Origin: Methanoregula sp.
GTDB taxonomy: Archaea; Halobacteriota; Methanomicrobia; Methanomicrobiales; Methanospirillaceae
Direction of reading: 5' to 3'
Assembly: GCF_003170075.1 (NCBI RefSeq)
Contig: NZ_PMZU01000052.1
Span: forward strand, 1-64,000
Length of the DNA stretch: 64,000 nucleotides
Shown: positions 48,164 to 57,750 of the stretch, piece after piece
Numbering within the stretch: position 1 is the first letter of the stretch
How the letters are laid out: every line of letters starts with the position of its first letter
Translations under genes and position numbers: made by a program
Notes under the pieces: generated by a model
What the model was told of the DNA's origin: nothing
The model's input: the letters and a program-made list of their open reading frames with translations, nothing else
The model's database searches: none

Positions 48164-50110
48164 TCACCCGGCAAGACGGTAGATGTCAGTGCCATGGTCA
48201 GAGTATACCAGTTCAAGCCCGGAGGTTGGGAGGTTTACGGTGTATTTTTCCCGCTCCAAGTCCCCGACATAGAGCAGGGTTGCGTTGTATTTTTTCATTA
48301 AGACAACCGTCTGGTCCGGCTCTTCATAGATTGACTTGATATCGACAGGCCGGGTGCTGTACCAGCCCGTAGTATCCCCGCGCCACATAAACTCGTGGAA
48401 CGGCTGGCCGATGATCGCAGGGATACCGGTGAACGATGAGATCCGGGAATAATAGGTGTAGTCGCCGCCTTCCGCCTCGATTATGCACTCGTCCCCGGTC
48501 AGGTTCCTGAGGTATGCAACACCTCCCGCATCGCCCGGGTGCGCTGTATCGAGGTAAGCAAGCCCGTCAAGTGTCCGGCTCCCATAATTGAGATCGAGAG
48601 GGATCACAAAAGGCGTGATAAACAGGATGCCAATTACCACTATGGCTAATACTGCACTTTTTTTTGCAGGTATAAATGGTACGCGCCCGGGCCGGGCGAG
48701 CCATGCGCCCGCCATCGCGAACGCACTGATGCCAAGGATGATCCACGCGGGCAGGTAGCACTTAAAGACAGTGTTCATCCGGAAATAGGTATCTCCCATA
48801 TTGTCCCTGAGATAGAACAATTCAACGATAATGAGAAGCAAAAGCCCAAAAATGGCAAGTATATCCGGGAGGCTGTGCTCCTTTTTTGCAATAAAATAGA
48901 TGAGGGGAATAGCAGCAATTGCTGCAGCAGTATAACCGGCAAGGATAAACGGTACTGCGATAAGCACAAGGTACGGCCGCTCCCGTATGTCTTTTATGAG
49001 GAGCAGCAGGAAGATGACGATAAACCAGCCGTTCACGAGCAGAAACTGGAAGGGATCTGATGGTGTCTTTACGATTGCAATCCCACCGGCACTCGTTTTA
49101 AGCATCAGGTAAAAAGGAAGGTAAACGAGAATGGCAAGGGGAGGGATCGCGATCAGATGGCCCCACGATGAGATCCCCAGTCCCTGTTCCCTGCCCCGCA
49201 GGATGATCAGCACAGCAAAGATGACCGTAATTGGCGCGTAGATGAGTACATCCCATGTGTTGATCAGGGGCATGGAGCCAAGGCTGAGTGCGGCAAGGCT
49301 GCACATTATCCATTTACTCTTTGATTCGAGTGAGTCCCAATATTTGTACAGGTAAAGCAGCAAGAAGATCAAAAAGGCCTGGTTAAATATCGAGATAACA
49401 TGGGCGTGGAGATCCCCCCAGGTAAACGAGAAAACGGGGTACTCGTTGATGGTGTTGGTGATCGTCCGGGTGCTGTCCCAGAGCGCAGAACTGATACTGC
49501 TTCCTGTGAAGAGCTGGTAAAAGAGCGAAGGATTGGGAATGAAGAAGATGAGCAGCGGCAACCAGCGGAACCGGTCGAGCAGGAGCGTGCCAATCGCATA
49601 GACGGTTACAGCAGCGACACCAAGTACTGTTGGCAGGGAGAGGTTGAATGCAATGTTCGAGGGAACGCCACTTACAATGCCAAGGCAGCCAAAAATCCAG
49701 TAGCCCAAATAATAATACACGTCCAGCGTGCCCCCGGTAAACCAGGGGTCGAGAGGAGGTACGACCGGGCTTCGCATGATGGATGCGAGGAAAGCATGGT
49801 CCATGAACTTCTCTGCATAGGAGATGGTGGGATTGACAAATCTCACCGTGAGCATCAAAAAGAAGAAGAGGAGGAAAATGAATTCCCAGTGCCACTCTTT
49901 TTTGAGTTCGCTCCATGCATAATCACGCCGGTAAAGGTGATTTATAAAGAGCAGAACAAAAGGCACAAGCGCAAGCTGTACCGGGAAACGGGCAAGGCCA
50001 CAGTACCATGTGAGAATTGTGAAAATAAGGAGCGATGCGGCAAATGCAGCAGGGAATGCGTACTGCCGGAAGCATTTTTTGAGGGTTGGATAGATCGCTA
50101 ACTGCAACAA
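48164..50110 (-). CDS. DUF2298 (YYY-type) polytopic membrane protein
   Basis: This protein of about 648 residues has some ten to twelve membrane helices and ends with an extracellular domain of roughly 110 residues. The family mark is YYYLGYWIFGCLG in a luminal loop, with SNIAFNLSLPT after it. DUF2298 proteins are thought to be GT-C-type glycosyltransferases that use lipid-linked sugars. The start is unclear: the frame begins at TTG 50110, but a hydrophobic in-frame stretch (ILSVVSWLLVTSLLQ) runs upstream to the end of the flippase-like gene without ATG or GTG. It is the last gene of the four-gene operon that begins at 53052. Confidence 0.85.
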   Translation of the reverse strand: MLQLAIYPTLKKCFRQYAFPAAFAASLLIFTILTWYCGLARFPVQLALVPFVLLFINHLYRRDYAWSELKKEWHWEFIFLLFFFLMLTVRFVNPTISYAEKFMDHAFLASIMRSPVVPPLDPWFTGGTLDVYYYLGYWIFGCLGIVSGVPSNIAFNLSLPTVLGVAAVTVYAIGTLLLDRFRWLPLLIFFIPNPSLFYQLFTGSSISSALWDSTRTITNTINEYPVFSFTWGDLHAHVISIFNQAFLIFLLLYLYKYWDSLESKSKWIMCSLAALSLGSMPLINTWDVLIYAPITVIFAVLIILRGREQGLGISSWGHLIAIPPLAILVYLPFYLMLKTSAGGIAIVKTPSDPFQFLLVNGWFIVIFLLLLIKDIRERPYLVLIAVPFILAGYTAAAIAAIPLIYFIAKKEHSLPDILAIFGLLLLIIVELFYLRDNMGDTYFRMNTVFKCYLPAWIILGISAFAMAGAWLARPGRVPFIPAKKSAVLAIVVIGILFITPFVIPLDLNYGSRTLDGLAYLDTAHPGDAGGVAYLRNLTGDECIIEAEGGDYTYYSRISSFTGIPAIIGQPFHEFMWRGDTTGWYSTRPVDIKSIYEEPDQTVVLMKKYNATLLYVGDLEREKYTVNLPTSGLELVYSDHGTDIYRLAG

Positions 50111-50153
50111 ACTCGTGACCAGCAGCCAGCTTACAACCGATAGGATCTGGAAA

Positions 50154-51125
50154 TCAGGGGTCAGATGTCTTTCCCCCGTTCAGTTTTGCATTGAGGGCCG
50201 ATTTGATCGTCGGGATCACCCAATCGCCGAGATAGTATATGGAAACAATGCCGCCGGCAAGAGTGATCAGGTTTTTGATGAGATGATCGATCACTGCGAT
50301 CAGGAAAGCCACGGCCGGGGCAATTCCTGCGATCTCAAAGGTTGCCGCGACCGCCAGTTCGTAGGTTCCAATTCCCCCGGGGGTAATCGGCACTGCCTTC
50401 ACAAGGTTCCCGATCACGATGGCGAGCACGATAACAGCAAACGGGATCTGTTGCTCAAACATCGTTACTACCGAGTAACAAACAAGGATGTCAAGCATCC
50501 AGATTACAATCGAAGATGCTCCGAGAATCACAATAGAGCGCAGGGTGAGCGAAGCCCTCCTGATCTCTTCGAGCATGGTCAGGATGTACCGGACGTACTT
50601 GTTTGTGGTGGTCAGTTTTCCGACAATTATCAGGAAGAGAAAAAATGCAAATCCGATCGCAAGGGGGACAATGATGTATAGATAGATCCAACCCGGGACA
50701 TTGGGGATAAAGAAGAAAGAGACCGCCCCGAGCAAGGCGACAGTGATGATATCAAAGATCCGTTCGACCACAATCGAAGAGATGCCTTCCGAGTATGTCG
50801 TTTTGTAATCATGTTTCAGGATAAAGATCCTGATGAAATCACCAAGTCTGGCAGGTACGATCAGGTTGACGGTCTGGCTGACAAACACACAGGCCGTGGT
50901 CACGGCAACCTTGATCCGGTAATTGAGGCTAAGAAGAATCCGGTGATACCTCCACCCACGCAGCCACCATGCGGCCAGGCAGATAATAATTGCGATTCCC
51001 AGATAGGCGGGAACAATGTGCTGGAGAGCGGTCAGCAGGTCATCCCAGACCCGGTAGAGCATATACACAATGATCCCGACGGCGATCAGGGTCGGGATCA
51101 GGATTGCACTAATCTTTCGATACAT
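50154..51125 (-). CDS. Lysylphosphatidylglycerol-synthase-like membrane protein (flippase-type, AglD C-terminal-like)
   Basis: From ATG 51125 the protein has 323 residues and eight or nine membrane helices. The UPF0104/LPG-synthase-like signature is visible as TPGGIGTYELAVAATF. In Haloferax AglD this domain is fused behind a GT2 glycosyltransferase; here the GT2 gene is separate and its end overlaps this start by 17 bases. The protein probably helps pass lipid-linked sugars across the membrane. That role is inferred from family and context. Confidence 0.85.
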   Translation of the reverse strand: MYRKISAILIPTLIAVGIIVYMLYRVWDDLLTALQHIVPAYLGIAIIICLAAWWLRGWRYHRILLSLNYRIKVAVTTACVFVSQTVNLIVPARLGDFIRIFILKHDYKTTYSEGISSIVVERIFDIITVALLGAVSFFFIPNVPGWIYLYIIVPLAIGFAFFLFLIIVGKLTTTNKYVRYILTMLEEIRRASLTLRSIVILGASSIVIWMLDILVCYSVVTMFEQQIPFAVIVLAIVIGNLVKAVPITPGGIGTYELAVAATFEIAGIAPAVAFLIAVIDHLIKNLITLAGGIVSIYYLGDWVIPTIKSALNAKLNGGKTSDP

Positions 51126-51825
51126 GGATCTGCCACCAGAGACGCAGGATGGATGAACCCATCCCAAATACGTCCTTTACCTGGACGGTTGTTCCTTTCC
51201 CCGCACGCCAGCGGACGGGAAACTCCGTGACCGTATACCCTTTTCGTTGTGCCCTCACCAGGAGTTCGGTGTCCCAGAACCAGTGGTTCGATCGTATAGT
51301 GGAGAGGATCGGGAGAATTTTTGCCTTGTTAAATGCCTTGAACCCGCACTGGTGATCGAAAAGCCGGCTGCCCAAAATGCACCGGACAAGGAAGTTGTAC
51401 GATCTGCTTGCGATCTCGCGGCCTTCCGTACGTCGTATGTCACTCTCCGGGAGAAGCCGGGAGCCGGTTGCGATATCAGCACCCGATCGTATCGCCCCAA
51501 TCAGTTCGGGAAGGTGTTGCATGTCGGTCGCGAGATCGACATCATAGTAACAGACAATCGATCCCTGGGCCTCCCGGATCGCACGGTTGAGTGCTGTTCC
51601 GCGTCCAAGGCGCTCGTCATTGTGCAGCAACCGGACCCGGGATGAAATCTTCTCAAACTCCCGCACAAAGGCTGTGCTTCCGTCAGAACTCCCGTCCTCG
51701 GCGACTATAACCTCGAATTCGTCCGTGATCTGAGAAAGTACCTCAATGGATACGGGTATCGCACGTTCGAGCGCAGGCCGGTCATTGAAGACCGGAATGA
51801 TAGCAGTGACTTCTGGCGCGACCAT
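51109..51825 (-). CDS. GT2 glycosyltransferase, dolichyl-phosphate sugar synthase-like
   Basis: The 238-residue cytosolic GT-A protein has EVTAIIPVFNDRPALERAI, EVIVAEDGSSDGS, and CYYDVDLATDM carrying the DxD-like metal site, followed by TGSRL. It resembles dolichyl-phosphate glucose/mannose synthases and the GT domain of AglD. It should transfer a sugar from a nucleotide donor to a polyprenyl phosphate on the inner face of the membrane. Its ATG follows the FAD-enzyme stop directly (TAA ATG), and its end overlaps the flippase-like gene. Confidence 0.9.
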   Translation of the reverse strand: MVAPEVTAIIPVFNDRPALERAIPVSIEVLSQITDEFEVIVAEDGSSDGSTAFVREFEKISSRVRLLHNDERLGRGTALNRAIREAQGSIVCYYDVDLATDMQHLPELIGAIRSGADIATGSRLLPESDIRRTEGREIASRSYNFLVRCILGSRLFDHQCGFKAFNKAKILPILSTIRSNHWFWDTELLVRAQRKGYTVTEFPVRWRAGKGTTVQVKDVFGMGSSILRLWWQIHVSKD

Positions 51826-53052
51826 TTAGTGTTCCTTCTTCTGAATGCACGTGGCAATCCGGTAGCCCGCACTGATCGAGCCTTCCATACTTCGCTCGGG
51901 GTAGTTCTCCTCGGAAAACATCCCGGCGATATAAATGCCGTGTTTTTCGTATGCAGGGATAAGGGAGCGGTAACCGGTTGTGTAGACCGGCCCGGCCCAA
52001 GGGTCGACCGCCATCCGGCTCCAGTGGATCTCCCGTTCCTCGAGTCCAAACCGGGTACAGAAGTCTTCCCGCATTTTCTGGTCGAGCCGTGCGGGAACGG
52101 TACCGCTGAAATACGAAGCGAGGTAGGCGATGTGCTCCCCGTAGCGTTCCCGCGGGACTAAATTAGTATGTGCCACAACCGCCCCGTACGGCCCTTCATC
52201 TTTCATGTTGATCCAGTATATCCCCTCACTGACGTCACGCTCCATTCCCAAGGTCATGCAGGCAGCGCCCTGGTATGGGATCTCCGGCATCATAAGGCCT
52301 GTAATATTCCCGAGTTCCTGTGGGGGGAGGGTGGACATGACTGTATCAACGCTTTCCCCATTGATCTCCCAGCAGCCATCTTTTCTGGAGAGAGATGTGA
52401 CCGGGGTTTGCAGGTTAATTTTCCCACCTTTACCCAGGATCGATTTTTCAAGACCGTCAATAATCTGGTGAAACCCTCCGTTCAGGTATCCAAGGTGTTC
52501 ACCGGAAATGCCCCGGTCTGACCGGATGGCGATACGGCTGATCAGCCAGGCAGCGGATACCTTGCTCCGGTTCTTCCCGAACTTGCTCTTGAGCAGAGGT
52601 TCAAAGAATGAGGAGTATATCCGGGGGCCGAGATGTTCGAGGATGTAGGTTTCGGCCGGGATGTCATCCAGGGAAAGGAGATCTGTTTTTTTTGCCTTCA
52701 ACGTAAGCCACGCAAGTTTTGCCTTATCGGTGAGCGAAAGTTCCGGCCAGCGCAGGATCTGTGAAGGGGTCGTAAGGGGGTATAGAGTATCCCGGGAAAA
52801 ATAACCGGTGCTCCCCGCATGCCATTCAAGTCGGTCCCACAACCCGAGCTCGCGGATGAGGGAAAAAAGCTGCCTGTCACCAGAGAAACAGTGATGGTAA
52901 TACCGCTCGATCCAGTAATCGTCAATATGGTATGACGAGAGACACCCTCCCAGAAATGGCATCTTCTCGAACAGCACAACCTCGTGCTCCCCGGCCAGCG
53001 TATGGGCAGCAACAAGCCCACACAACCCCCCCCCGAGTATTCCGATTTTCAT
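51826..53052 (-). CDS. FAD-dependent amine-oxidase/phytoene-desaturase-like oxidoreductase
   Basis: The 408-residue protein starts with the FAD motif GILGGGLCGLVAAHTLAG, then EKMPFLGGCLSSY and a C-terminal GMFSEENYPERSMEGSISAGYRIA, all typical of the flavin amine oxidase / protoporphyrinogen-oxidase-like clan. The HWSRMAVDPWAGPVYTTG segment resembles the substrate-side region of HpnE-like and UDP-galactopyranose-mutase-like relatives. It is the first gene of an operon with GT2, flippase-like and DUF2298 genes. It therefore may reduce or oxidise a polyprenyl lipid or an attached sugar. The exact reaction is unknown. Confidence 0.8.
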   Translation of the reverse strand: MKIGILGGGLCGLVAAHTLAGEHEVVLFEKMPFLGGCLSSYHIDDYWIERYYHHCFSGDRQLFSLIRELGLWDRLEWHAGSTGYFSRDTLYPLTTPSQILRWPELSLTDKAKLAWLTLKAKKTDLLSLDDIPAETYILEHLGPRIYSSFFEPLLKSKFGKNRSKVSAAWLISRIAIRSDRGISGEHLGYLNGGFHQIIDGLEKSILGKGGKINLQTPVTSLSRKDGCWEINGESVDTVMSTLPPQELGNITGLMMPEIPYQGAACMTLGMERDVSEGIYWINMKDEGPYGAVVAHTNLVPRERYGEHIAYLASYFSGTVPARLDQKMREDFCTRFGLEEREIHWSRMAVDPWAGPVYTTGYRSLIPAYEKHGIYIAGMFSEENYPERSMEGSISAGYRIATCIQKKEH

Positions 53053-53138
53053 GGTGCGTTACCGGTATTATTTGTTCAGAATCAAATGAAAAAGGCTCCG
53101 GAACCCACTTGGGAAATATGCGACGGAACATGACGAGA

Positions 53139-53147
53139 GTTTATAAG
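53139..53147 (-). promoter_or_regulatory. TATA box of the glycan operon
   Basis: On the minus strand CTTATAAAC fits the archaeal consensus. It predicts a start near 53118 and a leader of about 65 bases before the FAD-enzyme ATG at 53052. Confidence 0.45.
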
Positions 53148-53171
53148 AAAGTTTTTGTATTGTCGAATGTA

Positions 53172-53193
53172 AAGTTCTTAAAACAAAGAACTT
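53172..53193. promoter_or_regulatory. Perfect palindrome between the glycan operon and cetZ
   Basis: AAGTTCTT (53172-53179) and AAGAACTT (53186-53193) form a perfect inverted repeat of eight-base arms with spacer AAAACA. The right arm touches the A-rich box (CTTAAAAG, 53191-53198) that could be the cetZ TATA element. A dimeric repressor bound here would block cetZ and might influence the divergent operon. Confidence 0.55.
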
Positions 53194-53246
53194 AAAAGAA
53201 TTAAAAGGAAATACTTATTCGTTAGCCCATTGGAGGGTGTAACCAG

Positions 53247-54437
53247 ATGCGGGTCTTTTTCATTGGTTTTGGTCAGGCAGGGGGCAAAATTGTCGACATG
53301 TTCATTGAACAGGACAAGAAGCTCGGGACCAACAGTTTCCGGGGTATTGCTGTTAATACCGCACGGACCGATCTGATGGGCCTCAAAAATATTGAGATGA
53401 AAGATCGCATCCTCATCGGGCAGACGCTGGTGAAAGGTCATGGCGTGGGTACCGACAACGTGACCGGAGCCCGGGTTACGGCTGATGAGATCGACAGCAT
53501 TATCAATGCGGTCGACACCCGCGGAACGCATGACGTTGATGCGTTCGTCATTGTCGCCGGCCTTGGAGGGGGTACCGGGTCCGGTGGTTCGCCGGTGCTT
53601 GCACGTCACCTGAAAAGGATCTACCGGGAGCCGGTGTATGCACTGGGCATTATTCCTGCTCCCGAAGAAGGGCGGCTCTATTCATACAATGCAGCCCGCA
53701 GTCTTACTACTCTGGTAAATGAAGCGGACAATACCTTCATTTTTGATAATAGTGCATGGAAGAATGAGGGAGAGAGCGTCAAGAGTGCATTCCAGCGCCT
53801 CAATAACGAAGTGGTGCGGAGGTTTGCAATTCTCTTCCGCGCAGGTGAAGTGAGTCGGATGGGTGTTGGTGAGATGGTGGTGGACTCAAGTGAGATCATC
53901 AACACTCTCCGCGGAGGTGGCATCACTTCTGTCGGTTATGCCATCAGTGATGTGATCAGTACACGCACCAAGCAGCAGAGGGGAATCTTCGGTGGTCTCA
54001 AGGAGAACATTAAGGATAAATTCGGCGGTAAAAAAGAGGCAAATGAGCAAGTGCTCATGGGGGAGGACAGGTCGGCAAAGATTGTCGGCCTTGTCCGCCG
54101 TGCCATGCTGGGCCGTCTTACGCTTCCCTGTGATTATTCCACTGCAGAACGTGCGCTGGTTCTTGTGGCAGGACCCCCGGACGAGATGGACCGGAAAGGT
54201 GTCGAAAAAGCCAAGAGCTGGGTGGAAGAAAATATTGCCGGTGTTGAGGTGAGAGGGGGAGATTACCCGGTAAACAGCGAGTATGTCGCGGCAGTTGTGA
54301 TGCTGGCAACCGTTGGCAATGCCCCCCGGATCAAGGAACTCCTTGATATAGCAAAGGAAACAAAAGAAGAGGTTATTAAATCCAAGGAGAAGAAATCCAC
54401 TATGTTTGAGGAAGGTATCGAACCGTTGTTTGAGTGA
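53247..54437 (+). CDS. cetZ: CetZ-family tubulin/FtsZ homologue
   Basis: CetZ proteins are archaeal tubulin-superfamily GTPases that polymerise under the membrane and control cell shape in haloarchaea. The 396-residue protein has FIGFGQAGGKIVD, the tubulin signature GGGTGSG (107-113), NTARTDLMGL and the C-terminal activation domain. It lacks the FtsZ-typical C-terminal conserved tail and ends KKSTMFEEGIEPLFE. GGAGGGTGT precedes the ATG by six bases. The next gene starts within or just after its stop codon, so the two are probably translated together. Confidence 0.92.
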   Translation: MRVFFIGFGQAGGKIVDMFIEQDKKLGTNSFRGIAVNTARTDLMGLKNIEMKDRILIGQTLVKGHGVGTDNVTGARVTADEIDSIINAVDTRGTHDVDAFVIVAGLGGGTGSGGSPVLARHLKRIYREPVYALGIIPAPEEGRLYSYNAARSLTTLVNEADNTFIFDNSAWKNEGESVKSAFQRLNNEVVRRFAILFRAGEVSRMGVGEMVVDSSEIINTLRGGGITSVGYAISDVISTRTKQQRGIFGGLKENIKDKFGGKKEANEQVLMGEDRSAKIVGLVRRAMLGRLTLPCDYSTAERALVLVAGPPDEMDRKGVEKAKSWVEENIAGVEVRGGDYPVNSEYVAAVVMLATVGNAPRIKELLDIAKETKEEVIKSKEKKSTMFEEGIEPLFE

Positions 54438-54442
54438 GGTTG

Positions 54443-55570
54443 ATGATGAAGGGATTGACACGATTGATTTGGATTACGGCCCTGTTTTTAATTATAGTAC
54501 CGGCAGCATCCTTGGCATATACGGTGAACTCCATGTCGGTAAGCCCGAATGGTACCCTGACGCCGGGAACTACTGTGGATATATCCTTCACGGTACAGGA
54601 GCCCAGCGGGTCAACAACAACAAACTCTCTCCAAATGTATACTCAATTGGATAAACCAGCATGGTCTTATGTCGTTAATGTGAACAGTGTCGCGAACGGC
54701 CTTACTGAAGCATCGGGAAAGACAATAACTATTAATGGTTTTTTACTGACCTATAAATCCAGTGACGACGTATCAGTAGCAGTAACACTGGAAGGGACTG
54801 CCCCCACGGTAACGCAGACCGCAAAGCAGACATTAATCCAGATTAATGAGGTGGATTCAAATGGTAATCTGGGTAGTACGCCGTATACACTGAGCACCTT
54901 GGTCGTCAATACCAATGATGTTACGACCGCTATTGCAAATGCAAATTCCCAGCTCAGCCAGTTCAGGACTGAGATCGATGAAAAAGCAGCACTGGATATC
55001 GATACCTCTGCGGCTGAAGCAAAATACAACGATGCCCAAACCCAGATTACCACGGCCCAGGGATTACCCTCCACGTCATACACTGATGCCTTAAATGATA
55101 TTAATACGGCAATATCCACGATCTCTGATGGCGAGACCCTCATTGATAAAGCCTGGGCAGAAAAAGAAATCTCTGATGCACAGGGGCCTGTCAATAATGT
55201 CGATGTACTGATCACTAATTTCCAAGCCAACTCAAGTACGTCAAGTGATGCCCGGTTGTCAACGATTATCACTGAACGGGAAATTGCAGTGAGTTATATC
55301 TCAGCAGCAAACGATGCGGTAACATCTGGTAATTTTGCACAGGCCCGTGCAAAAGCTGAGCAGGCATTTACAGAAGGAAATCAATCCTACAACGATGCAC
55401 TTACGTTCAAAGCAGCGGTAGAAGCCAATCCCTTTGCGGCGCTTGGTTCACTTGGTTCAATATTCAGTTCCAGTGTCCTCCTTATTATTGTAGGCGTGAT
55501 AGCAGTTGTGTTAATTATTGTCGGTGTCATCATTTACCGTAAACGCTCGCACTGGGACGAATTGGGATAG
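54443..55570 (+). CDS. Secreted helical protein with C-terminal membrane anchor
   Basis: The protein (about 375 residues) has a signal peptide (about 1-28) and a beta-rich domain (about 30-165, with VTVDISFTVQEPSG-like strands). A long alpha-helical part follows (about 165-335; periodic Ala, Gln, Asp with short repeats such as AEAKYNDAQTQITTA and ARAKAEQAFTEGN). One C-terminal membrane helix (about 345-368) is followed by KRSHWDELG. It should form a membrane-tethered, rod-like structure outside the cell. It overlaps or adjoins cetZ; a GTG at 54434 inside the cetZ stop region is an alternative start. Family unknown. Confidence 0.72.
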   Translation: MMKGLTRLIWITALFLIIVPAASLAYTVNSMSVSPNGTLTPGTTVDISFTVQEPSGSTTTNSLQMYTQLDKPAWSYVVNVNSVANGLTEASGKTITINGFLLTYKSSDDVSVAVTLEGTAPTVTQTAKQTLIQINEVDSNGNLGSTPYTLSTLVVNTNDVTTAIANANSQLSQFRTEIDEKAALDIDTSAAEAKYNDAQTQITTAQGLPSTSYTDALNDINTAISTISDGETLIDKAWAEKEISDAQGPVNNVDVLITNFQANSSTSSDARLSTIITEREIAVSYISAANDAVTSGNFAQARAKAEQAFTEGNQSYNDALTFKAAVEANPFAALGSLGSIFSSSVLLIIVGVIAVVLIIVGVIIYRKRSHWDELG

Positions 55571-56103: not shown

Positions 56104-57750
56104 TTACTGTTGCGGTGTAAAAACATCGATATTTATACTTCCCATCTTCCCGTCACGGTGAATGTAATAATCAAAGAGCCGGTTATCATTATCATAGAAT
56201 GAGAACCAGTAACTGAGTTTGTAGGTCTTTTTATCATATCCCGACAGGGAGGGATAACTCTCTGTATCGTGAAGAATGATCACTCCGGGGTGGTTCTCAG
56301 TCAGGGTCTTTTCATCCTCTGTCTGGCCATAGAATGTGATCTTATTCCACCGATCGCCCCGGTAATACCAGGGTAACGGCCAGTAATCCGTCGATGCGAC
56401 GACCACATGATCGGAAGCATCGATCAGCGTCATAACCTCCCGCAGGTCTTCGGAATTCTGAACCTGGATAATGGGTTCATTGATATCCACCGGGACAAAA
56501 GCAACGTGCCATGTCATCAGGATCAGGAAGATGCATCCTATGAGGGCAAATACAATCTTCTGCCAGTTCAGTTTGTATGTGGCAACAAAGCACATGGGGA
56601 GCAGCTGGTGGATCAAAAGCCAAGGGACTTTCTCGCCAACATATGCATAAAACGCCATGGTCAGAATCATCCAGTAGATGCAAAGCTGGAAGAAAAAATC
56701 TGATTTTTCCGTGGTTGCTAAGGGTGTCCTGATTTGGGCAAGGCTTGTTGTGGCAAGGTCCGCTGTTGAGAGTTCAAAGCGGCGGGATTTCAGCCAGTTT
56801 TTTATACGCCTGCCGGTAAGGGCCAGGTTAGTGCCTTTGAATACAAACTGGAGAGTTCCCAGTATTGCAAGAAGGAATATCGGCAATTCATACAGGAGAT
56901 ACAAGGGAATATAGAAATAGAACGGGCCTCCAAGACGCTGCTCTTCATGCATGGCCAACCAGTGGTCAGCAGCCTGATACCATCCAGTGGTATTGATCTG
57001 GAAATTCTGACCGACCAGCGTCTCCGGATGCATCCCGAATGCGGAATAGAGGGCAACAAGAATCCCGATAATGATAAACAATCCGATAAGGAGATCATGT
57101 TTCCATTGGGGTGGCAGATGGATGCGTTTTTTCCAGATTGAATACCCAAAAAACGAGATGAAGATCAACAATATGATCGGCATCTCTTCTTTACAGCAAA
57201 GCGCTCCCCCAGTTGCTATTGCAGCGACAATGACGTATCGTAGTTGTCCCCGCTCAAAATAATAAAGCAGGGCAACAAGGAGGAGCAGGGTGAAAAAAAG
57301 CATGAAAATATCATGACGGAGGAACCGGGAGAAATAGACCATGTCCGGGGATATGGCAATGAACAGCGCGACAATGAGTGTCTGCGCCTTTGTGATATAC
57401 CCGAGCCGGTAAATAAAGTAGACCAGAGGTACAAGCAGCGTTCCGAATAATGCCGGAAGTAATCGTGCAACAAGATCTGATGCACCAAAAAGCGAGAACA
57501 TCCCGGCTGTGACATAATAGAGGAAAGGACCGTGGTAACTGGGGTCGTAGACCCAGGTTCCTTTTGTCAGGAGATTAAAGGAAAACCATGAATGGATGGC
57601 TTCATCATGGTGGAATAATTTGAGATCCAGATGCCAGAATCTCAGGATGATGGTAAGCAGTAAAATTAAAAGAAAAACCCGCTCAAAAGTAAAGATGTGT
57701 TTTATCTTATCGGAAAAAGAAGCGGCTTTTTCCACGTGCCGCACCTTCAA
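56104..57750 (-). CDS. TIGR03663/Agl23-like GT-C membrane protein
   Basis: The 548-residue protein has about eleven to thirteen membrane helices. Its first outer loop carries [21 protein letters not shown], the acidic (DE) motif of GT-C glycosyltransferases, followed by [12 protein letters not shown]. This matches the TIGR03663 family, named a flippase-activity-associated protein (Agl23), which acts in archaeal lipid-linked glycan work. The start is a TTG that overlaps the rps10 stop (TTGA), so this surface-glycan gene is in the tef1a-rps10 transcript. Confidence 0.87.

Follow-up and report, generated by a model that had tools for sequence, protein, structure and literature searches.

A four-gene operon in a 64,000-nucleotide stretch of Methanoregula sp. 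DNA (contig NZ_PMZU01000052.1, positions 1 to 64,000; hereafter the window), together with a nearby gene for an Agl23-family protein, probably encodes a glycosylation module in which a sugar is carried on polyprenyl phosphate (dolichyl phosphate) and which includes an extra redox step. The genome that holds the window (G000) is 1.92 Mb in size. The operon encodes a flavin adenine dinucleotide (FAD)-dependent oxidoreductase of the PRK07233 family (the flavoenzyme), a family 2 glycosyltransferase (GT2), a flippase-like membrane protein and a membrane protein of the DUF2298 family. Protein families, operon conservation, co-inheritance across genomes and predicted folds were computed, whereas the activities are what we infer, as are the acceptor, the sugar and what the redox step acts on. 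The five genes, all on the minus strand, are as follows.

51826 to 53052, minus strand: first gene of the operon, PRK07233-family FAD-dependent oxidoreductase, 408 amino acids (aa) (NF005560, PF01593)
51109 to 51825, minus strand: GT2 glycosyltransferase resembling the AglD N-terminal domain and DPM1, 238 aa (PF00535)
50154 to 51125, minus strand: flippase-like membrane protein, LPG_synthase_TM/TIGR00374, 323 aa (PF03706, TIGR00374)
48164 to 50164, minus strand: DUF2298/TIGR03662 polytopic membrane protein, 666 aa if begun at the CTG at 50164 (PF10060, TIGR03662)
56104 to 57750, minus strand: TIGR03663 "flippase activity-associated protein Agl23", PMT_2-like, 548 aa (TIGR03663)

Read from 53052 down to 48164, the open reading frames and the sequence give the order flavoenzyme, GT2, flippase-like protein, DUF2298. 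The TAA stop codon of the flavoenzyme gene directly abuts the ATG of GT2, and the end of GT2, including its stop codon, overlaps by 17 bases the flippase-like gene, which begins at an ATG at 51125; the mechanically called frame of the latter extends to a TTG at 51167, and the ATG gives the protein of 323 aa. An earlier, sequence-only reading of this DNA had described the same order and a tight coupling of the genes, both of which are borne out by the families, the abutment and the overlap. The four genes that it listed are also confirmed, except that we move the start of DUF2298 from a TTG at 50110 to a CTG at 50164, and by stopping at four genes it missed Agl23, which belongs to the inherited unit described below and lies 3 kb from the operon, nearby yet outside it. 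The CTG, which gives an 11-base overlap with the flippase-like gene, is the most likely start because translation of the frame upstream of 50110 gives the N-terminal helix that relatives have and makes a protein of 666 aa, the length of many of them. Beyond 50110 this open frame offers no ATG, GTG or TTG further upstream; at the site of the CTG, relatives from the nearest genera have CTG (loci L033 and L034) and one from another genus has GTG (L054).

DUF2298, PRK07233 and Agl23 behave as one inherited unit. In all 25 sampled Methanomicrobiales genomes (that of the window and 24 others), the flavoenzyme and DUF2298 genes share a strand and are 1.8 kb apart. GT2 and flippase-like genes were confirmed within this gap in most of them, by gene calling and with our own hidden Markov models (HMMs); in the remaining genomes, where a simple caller chose overlapping frames and the middle genes are not individually confirmed, the gap has the same length. 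Three loci from named Methanomicrobiales genomes (L169, L170 and L173) hold the identical four genes. We searched a phylum sample of 148 genomes for DUF2298, PRK07233 and Agl23 and found a full-length DUF2298 in 67, PRK07233 above its cut-off in 69 and Agl23 above its cut-off in 69. DUF2298 and PRK07233 occur together in 66 genomes, all three proteins in 66 and any one of them in 71, and Agl23 is present in 67 of the 67 genomes with DUF2298. Uncorrected for relatedness, the phi coefficient with DUF2298 is 0.946 for PRK07233 and 0.973 for Agl23, against only 0.57 for a control, CetZ, whose gene is divergent from that of the flavoenzyme. Chance linkage is ruled out by the conservation of the operon and by this control. 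Within three families the three genes are patchy and move together (up to 3 of 18, 4 of 10 and 1 of 5 genomes, DUF2298 being missing in one case), and these within-family splits, along with the occurrence in a second domain of life, are a stronger argument than the phylum counts. Co-occurrence of the genes in other genomes, on which the sequence-only reading had staked its proposal, thus proved very strong in the phylum and across domains.

Among bacteria, the set is found again in Chloroflexota operons, and parts of it in Patescibacteria and Bacillota. Scanning a collection of one genome per species with a six-row DUF2298 alignment revealed at least 501 places that encode a relative, and 79 loci were kept for anatomy. 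The Methanosarcina locus has the order Agl23, PRK07233, other genes, DUF2298 and a fused GT2-flippase gene, the Archaeoglobi locus a fused GT2-flippase gene followed by DUF2298, and one Methanocellales genome the order Agl23, PRK07233, GT2, DUF2298, DUF2298, flippase-like, with a similar arrangement in Methanoperedenaceae. Patescibacteria carry PRK07233, PMT_2 and DUF2298 in this order (Pfam assignments), and PRK07233 adjoins or lies near DUF2298 in one Bacillota, one Clostridiaceae and one Deltaproteobacterium genome. The Chloroflexota operons run DUF2298, Agl23, in places a TIGR00374 flippase-like gene, and PRK07233, with scores above curated cut-offs and overlapping genes in several cases. 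Among 101 Chloroflexota genomes, 64 encode both DUF2298 and the flavoenzyme, one DUF2298 alone, seven the flavoenzyme alone and 29 neither (relatedness uncorrected), and the two lie within 15 kb of each other in 12 of the 101. All tested bacterial flavoenzymes exceed the PRK07233 cut-off, and PRK07233 is above cut-off in 32 of 34 DUF2298-carrying genomes chosen from the archaeal and bacterial loci. The window's own Agl23 gene scores 401 bits for TIGR03663 (cut-off 126), and its counterparts adjoin the DUF2298 and flavoenzyme genes in Chloroflexota and several archaeal loci. TIGR03662 and TIGR03663 form a pair in TIGRFAMs, where the two models are described as sharing genomes and frequently lying close together; we know of no TIGRFAMs description of them that mentions a GT-C fold, a flavoenzyme or a link to GT2 and flippase-like proteins.

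The GT2 carries PF00535, has dolichol-P-mannose and undecaprenyl-P-sugar synthases among its relatives in the PDB, and is predicted to be a dolichyl-phosphate sugar synthase. Its top NCBIfam model is dolichyl-phosphate hexose transferase, but membership of that family is ruled out by a score of 67.6 bits against a cut-off of 375. The motifs D95-V-D97, GSR, DHQCGFK and W-D185-x-E187 are conserved among 56 sequences (the window's, 25 fused and 30 separate), of which at least 55 keep the DXD motif D95-V-D97. The flippase-like protein has a UPF0104/arCOG00899-type domain (PF03706, 182 bits; TIGR00374, 98 bits against a cut-off of 43) and is probably the equivalent of the AglD C-terminal domain; an HMM of its family gives most fused AglD-like proteins about 166-213 bits. 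AglD of Haloferax volcanii is a GT2 fused to UPF0104/arCOG00899, according to two papers (PMC5898192, PMC2877612). Since the two domains sit in two genes in the window, overlapping by 17 bases, and are fused in relatives only, we name the pair split AglD-like rather than AglD.

A fused AglD-like protein adjoins DUF2298 in Methanosarcina and Archaeoglobi. With the fused protein of Methanosarcina as query, one close fused relative (open frames of about 610-770 aa, 41-45% identity) turned up in each of ten DUF2298-carrying, haloarchaea-like genomes, and in two families a fused AglD-like protein is present in the DUF2298 carriers at E ≤ 1e-123. Six family f23 genomes without DUF2298 have no close GT2, the best match being to the flippase half alone (E of about 1e-46 to 1e-51), and six family f8 genomes without DUF2298 have nothing close to the fused Methanosarcina protein. 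In a GT2 tree, the window's sequence is close to the fused AglD-like GT2 domains, with deep forks that are open or weak and paralogs on long branches. The description of the pair as a split AglD, made in the sequence-only reading, is thus supported in architecture by relatives that are fused and occupy loci of this kind.

DUF2298 scores 416 bits for PF10060 and 514 bits for TIGR03662 (cut-off 300). A Foldseek search of its AlphaFold 2 (AF2) model (predicted local distance difference test, pLDDT, of 90) against the PDB returned 11 matches at E ≤ 0.001, all of them GT-C enzymes or complexes containing one: AftA first (E 2e-7), AglB and STT3 complexes, then AftD, PglB and PMT. The same protein had no significant match among viral structures. 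E118, D139 and Y150-Y151 are invariant in 41 sequences and D122 nearly so. We predict from the modelled fold that DUF2298 is a GT-C glycosyltransferase, which lends support to the suggestion, already made from the sequence, that it is the outer glycosyltransferase of the system. PF10060 may be a member of the GT-C clan of Pfam.

The flavoenzyme scores 455.5 bits for NF005560/PRK07233 (cut-off 252) and has a PF01593 domain. Its AF2 model (pLDDT 92) has an amine-oxidase/phytoene-desaturase-like fold; protoporphyrinogen oxidase comes first by E-value in Foldseek and phytoene desaturase is top by TM-score (0.82), while UDP-galactopyranose mutase appears only from rank 29 down. A profile search also places phytoene desaturase first, over the full length (E 2e-22). 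Assignment as a UDP-galactopyranose mutase was rejected (TIGR00031, 15 bits against a cut-off of 303.75, with fold matches weaker than those to protoporphyrinogen oxidase and phytoene desaturase), as was assignment as HpnE, phytoene desaturase or protoporphyrinogen oxidase, where scores of 59.4, 33.1 and 31.5 bits fall below cut-offs of 283, 569 and 98, respectively, and the fold alone is similar. Invariant polar residues include Y52, H53, R177, H295 and N297. In three Patescibacteria-type loci (L161, L163 and L178), the flavoenzyme gene has an undecaprenyl-PP synthase gene at a distance of 31-48 bases, and DUF2298 a polyprenyl synthetase gene at about 1 kb, with a PMT_2-like gene also lying between in L161 and L178; in the archaeal locus L093 a prenyl-diphosphate synthase gene lies 43 bases from DUF2298. 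Because of these prenyl-synthase neighbours and the phytoene-desaturase-like fold, the evidence favours the polyprenyl carrier lipid as the substrate, with the lipid-linked sugar as the alternative. Action on either the polyprenyl or the sugar had been suggested in the sequence-only reading; the suggestion is still inferential, with the fold and the few prenyl-synthase neighbours now tilting it towards the lipid. We found no published function for DUF2298 or PRK07233 in the literature searched.

In the module as we picture it, GT2 would use a nucleotide sugar to load dolichyl phosphate with a hexose at the cytoplasmic side, and the flippase-like protein, with or without the help of Agl23, would bring the loaded carrier across to the outer face. 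There, DUF2298 would act as a GT-C enzyme, taking the sugar off the lipid and attaching it to an extracytoplasmic acceptor, potentially a surface-layer (S-layer) glycoprotein, archaellin or a surface glycan. The flavoenzyme may supply a redox step needed by DUF2298 and Agl23, most likely a reduction, desaturation or isomerisation of the isoprenoid chain of the carrier. More tentatively, we propose that PRK07233, DUF2298 and Agl23 could be the core of an unrecognised cross-domain system of lipid-linked glycosylation, in which the flavoenzyme alters the polyprenyl-phosphate carrier (or its sugar) as a required step that enables a dedicated GT-C-like pair. If true, this would give lipid-linked glycosylation a new redox step, common to archaea, Chloroflexota, Patescibacteria and others. 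Placing the uncharacterised DUF2298 and PRK07233 in one pathway would make a testable system with a new GT-C family and a redox enzyme for the carrier or sugar. It would also offer a way to settle whether Agl23 is a flippase or the partner of one, and would bear on surface decoration in archaea and in poorly known bacterial phyla.

The flavoenzyme might instead edit the lipid-bound sugar, by oxidation/epimerisation or a ring change comparable to that of DprE1 on decaprenyl-phospho-ribose, with DUF2298 and Agl23 transferring the edited sugar. AftA, the top fold match of DUF2298, does use a lipid-linked sugar edited by DprE1/DprE2 (PMC11127046), the flavoenzyme has many invariant polar residues, and UDP-galactopyranose mutases are among its weaker fold matches. 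The AftA match is, however, a general GT-C resemblance, the flavoenzyme resembles phytoene desaturase and protoporphyrinogen oxidase more closely than it does UDP-galactopyranose mutase, and the prenyl synthase neighbours indicate lipid; we consider sugar editing unlikely. DprE1 also belongs to a different flavoprotein family from PRK07233. We find it far less plausible still that the flavoenzyme has an unrelated function (for example, in the metabolism of heme or carotenoids) and just happens to sit beside genes for glycosylation: its closest named relatives are indeed protoporphyrinogen oxidases and carotene desaturases, but its co-occurrence with DUF2298 and Agl23 is near-perfect even where the genes are unlinked, in two domains of life, and Chloroflexota operons that are arranged differently hold the same families.

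A further alternative concerns the acceptor. The operon could glycosylate membrane lipids or polysaccharide and have no link to protein N- or O-glycosylation, as might be suggested by the module's presence in Chloroflexota and Patescibacteria, where archaeal-type S-layer N-glycosylation is not expected, and by the activity of GT-C enzymes on polysaccharides too (PMC11127046). Haloferax AglD, by contrast, is an enzyme of protein N-glycosylation (PMC2877612), and Haloarcula hispanica Agl23 is described for N- and O-glycan synthesis in PMC11182771; an exclusively non-protein acceptor is in our view rather improbable.

Several points weigh against the polyprenyl-phosphate module with a redox step that we prefer. 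The substrates and products of the five proteins in Methanoregula sp. are predictions only. TM-scores of DUF2298 to known GT-Cs reach 0.45-0.49 at best, and a sequence-profile search of solved structures gave no meaningful match to any GT-C. The invariant polar residues of the flavoenzyme (Y52, H53, R177, H295, N297 and others) could equally bind a sugar phosphate, and the prenyl-synthase context is a small sample of three related loci and one archaeal locus. Outside Methanomicrobiales, the flavoenzyme lies within 15 kb of DUF2298 in just 3 of 41 archaeal genomes sharing both. GT2 has a looser tie to the module, since families f16 and f10 have it where the module is incomplete. Agl23 is PMT-like by sequence yet is reported as a flippase in PMC11182771, which makes it uncertain how the roles are divided among the flippase-like protein, Agl23 and DUF2298.

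Parts of this system have known counterparts. Compared by described domain layout, H. volcanii AglD has two domains in common with the window pair, including the conserved DXD motif, whereas the window has two genes and the DUF2298 and flavoenzyme companions. For Agl22/Agl23 of H. hispanica (Lu 2020, cited in PMC11182771), Agl23 is reported to translocate lipid-linked oligosaccharide in vitro (PMC11182771). The window likewise has a TIGR03663/Agl23 member (56104-57750) and a GT2 whose best NCBIfam model is the dolichyl-phosphate hexose transferase; unlike in that system, its GT2 is far below the cut-off of the model, and the available description of Agl22/Agl23 is without DUF2298 or a flavoenzyme. 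Stand-alone arCOG00899 flippase-like genes beside an AglD-like glycosyltransferase and a PMT/STT3-like protein, with a predicted flippase role, were described around MJ1079-MJ1080 (Makarova 2015, PMC5898192), where neither DUF2298 nor a PRK07233 flavoenzyme is named in the portion available. Bacterial Gtr systems (GtrB, GtrA, GT-C) and the mycobacterial DPA (decaprenyl-phospho-arabinose)/AftA pathway also combine a lipid-phosphate sugar synthase, a flippase and a GT-C transferase, and the latter includes a redox epimerase on a lipid-linked sugar, DprE1/DprE2 (PMC11127046). The window's flippase-like protein, however, is PF03706 and not GtrA-family (SMR-like), such that the Gtr likeness is one of working only, and DUF2298 is not detectably related to AftA in sequence.

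Thus AglD, Agl22/Agl23, the Gtr systems, the TIGR03662/TIGR03663 pairing, the flippase prediction and the neighbourhood of AglD-like glycosyltransferase, flippase-like protein and PMT were already known, and the pathway, presented as uncharacterised in the sequence-only reading, is only partly so, AglD- and Agl23-type proteins having been studied in haloarchaea. New, as far as we found, are the tie of PRK07233 to the system in archaea and bacteria, the support for a GT-C fold in DUF2298 and the joined five-gene module.

We also noted several variants of the DUF2298 loci. In Chloroflexota, DUF2298 proteins of great length (about 1500-1850 aa) occur, in many cases encoded immediately before a shorter copy (loci L146, L149, L151, L152, L160, L165, L167, L177, L179-L181, L186, L188 and L191). 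Second, unlinked DUF2298 copies occur in several Methanomicrobiales genomes (L060-L063); those of L060, L062 and L063 form their own clade and that of L061 groups with family f9 sequences. A short contig (G033:C26, locus L058) holds a second flavoenzyme, GT2 and flippase-like set, with no DUF2298 in the stretch fetched. In ANME-2/Methanosarcinales loci (L118, L119, L121, L124-L126, L128, L129 and L131), a KaiC-like ATPase gene (about 247 aa) adjoins DUF2298 at a mean distance of about 60 bases.

Upstream of the operon lies one further feature, read from the sequence by eye.

53053 to 53246, no strand assigned: intergenic region separating the FAD gene from the divergent CetZ gene

It contains a candidate TATA-like element, TTCTTATAAA, on the minus strand at 53149-53140, likewise picked out by eye. 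Between the operon and Agl23 (53247-55570), the other strand carries the CetZ tubulin-like gene and a gene for a secreted protein of 378 aa that is C-terminally membrane-anchored and has no confident family. This arrangement of CetZ and the secreted protein between the operon and Agl23 recurs across much of Methanomicrobiales.

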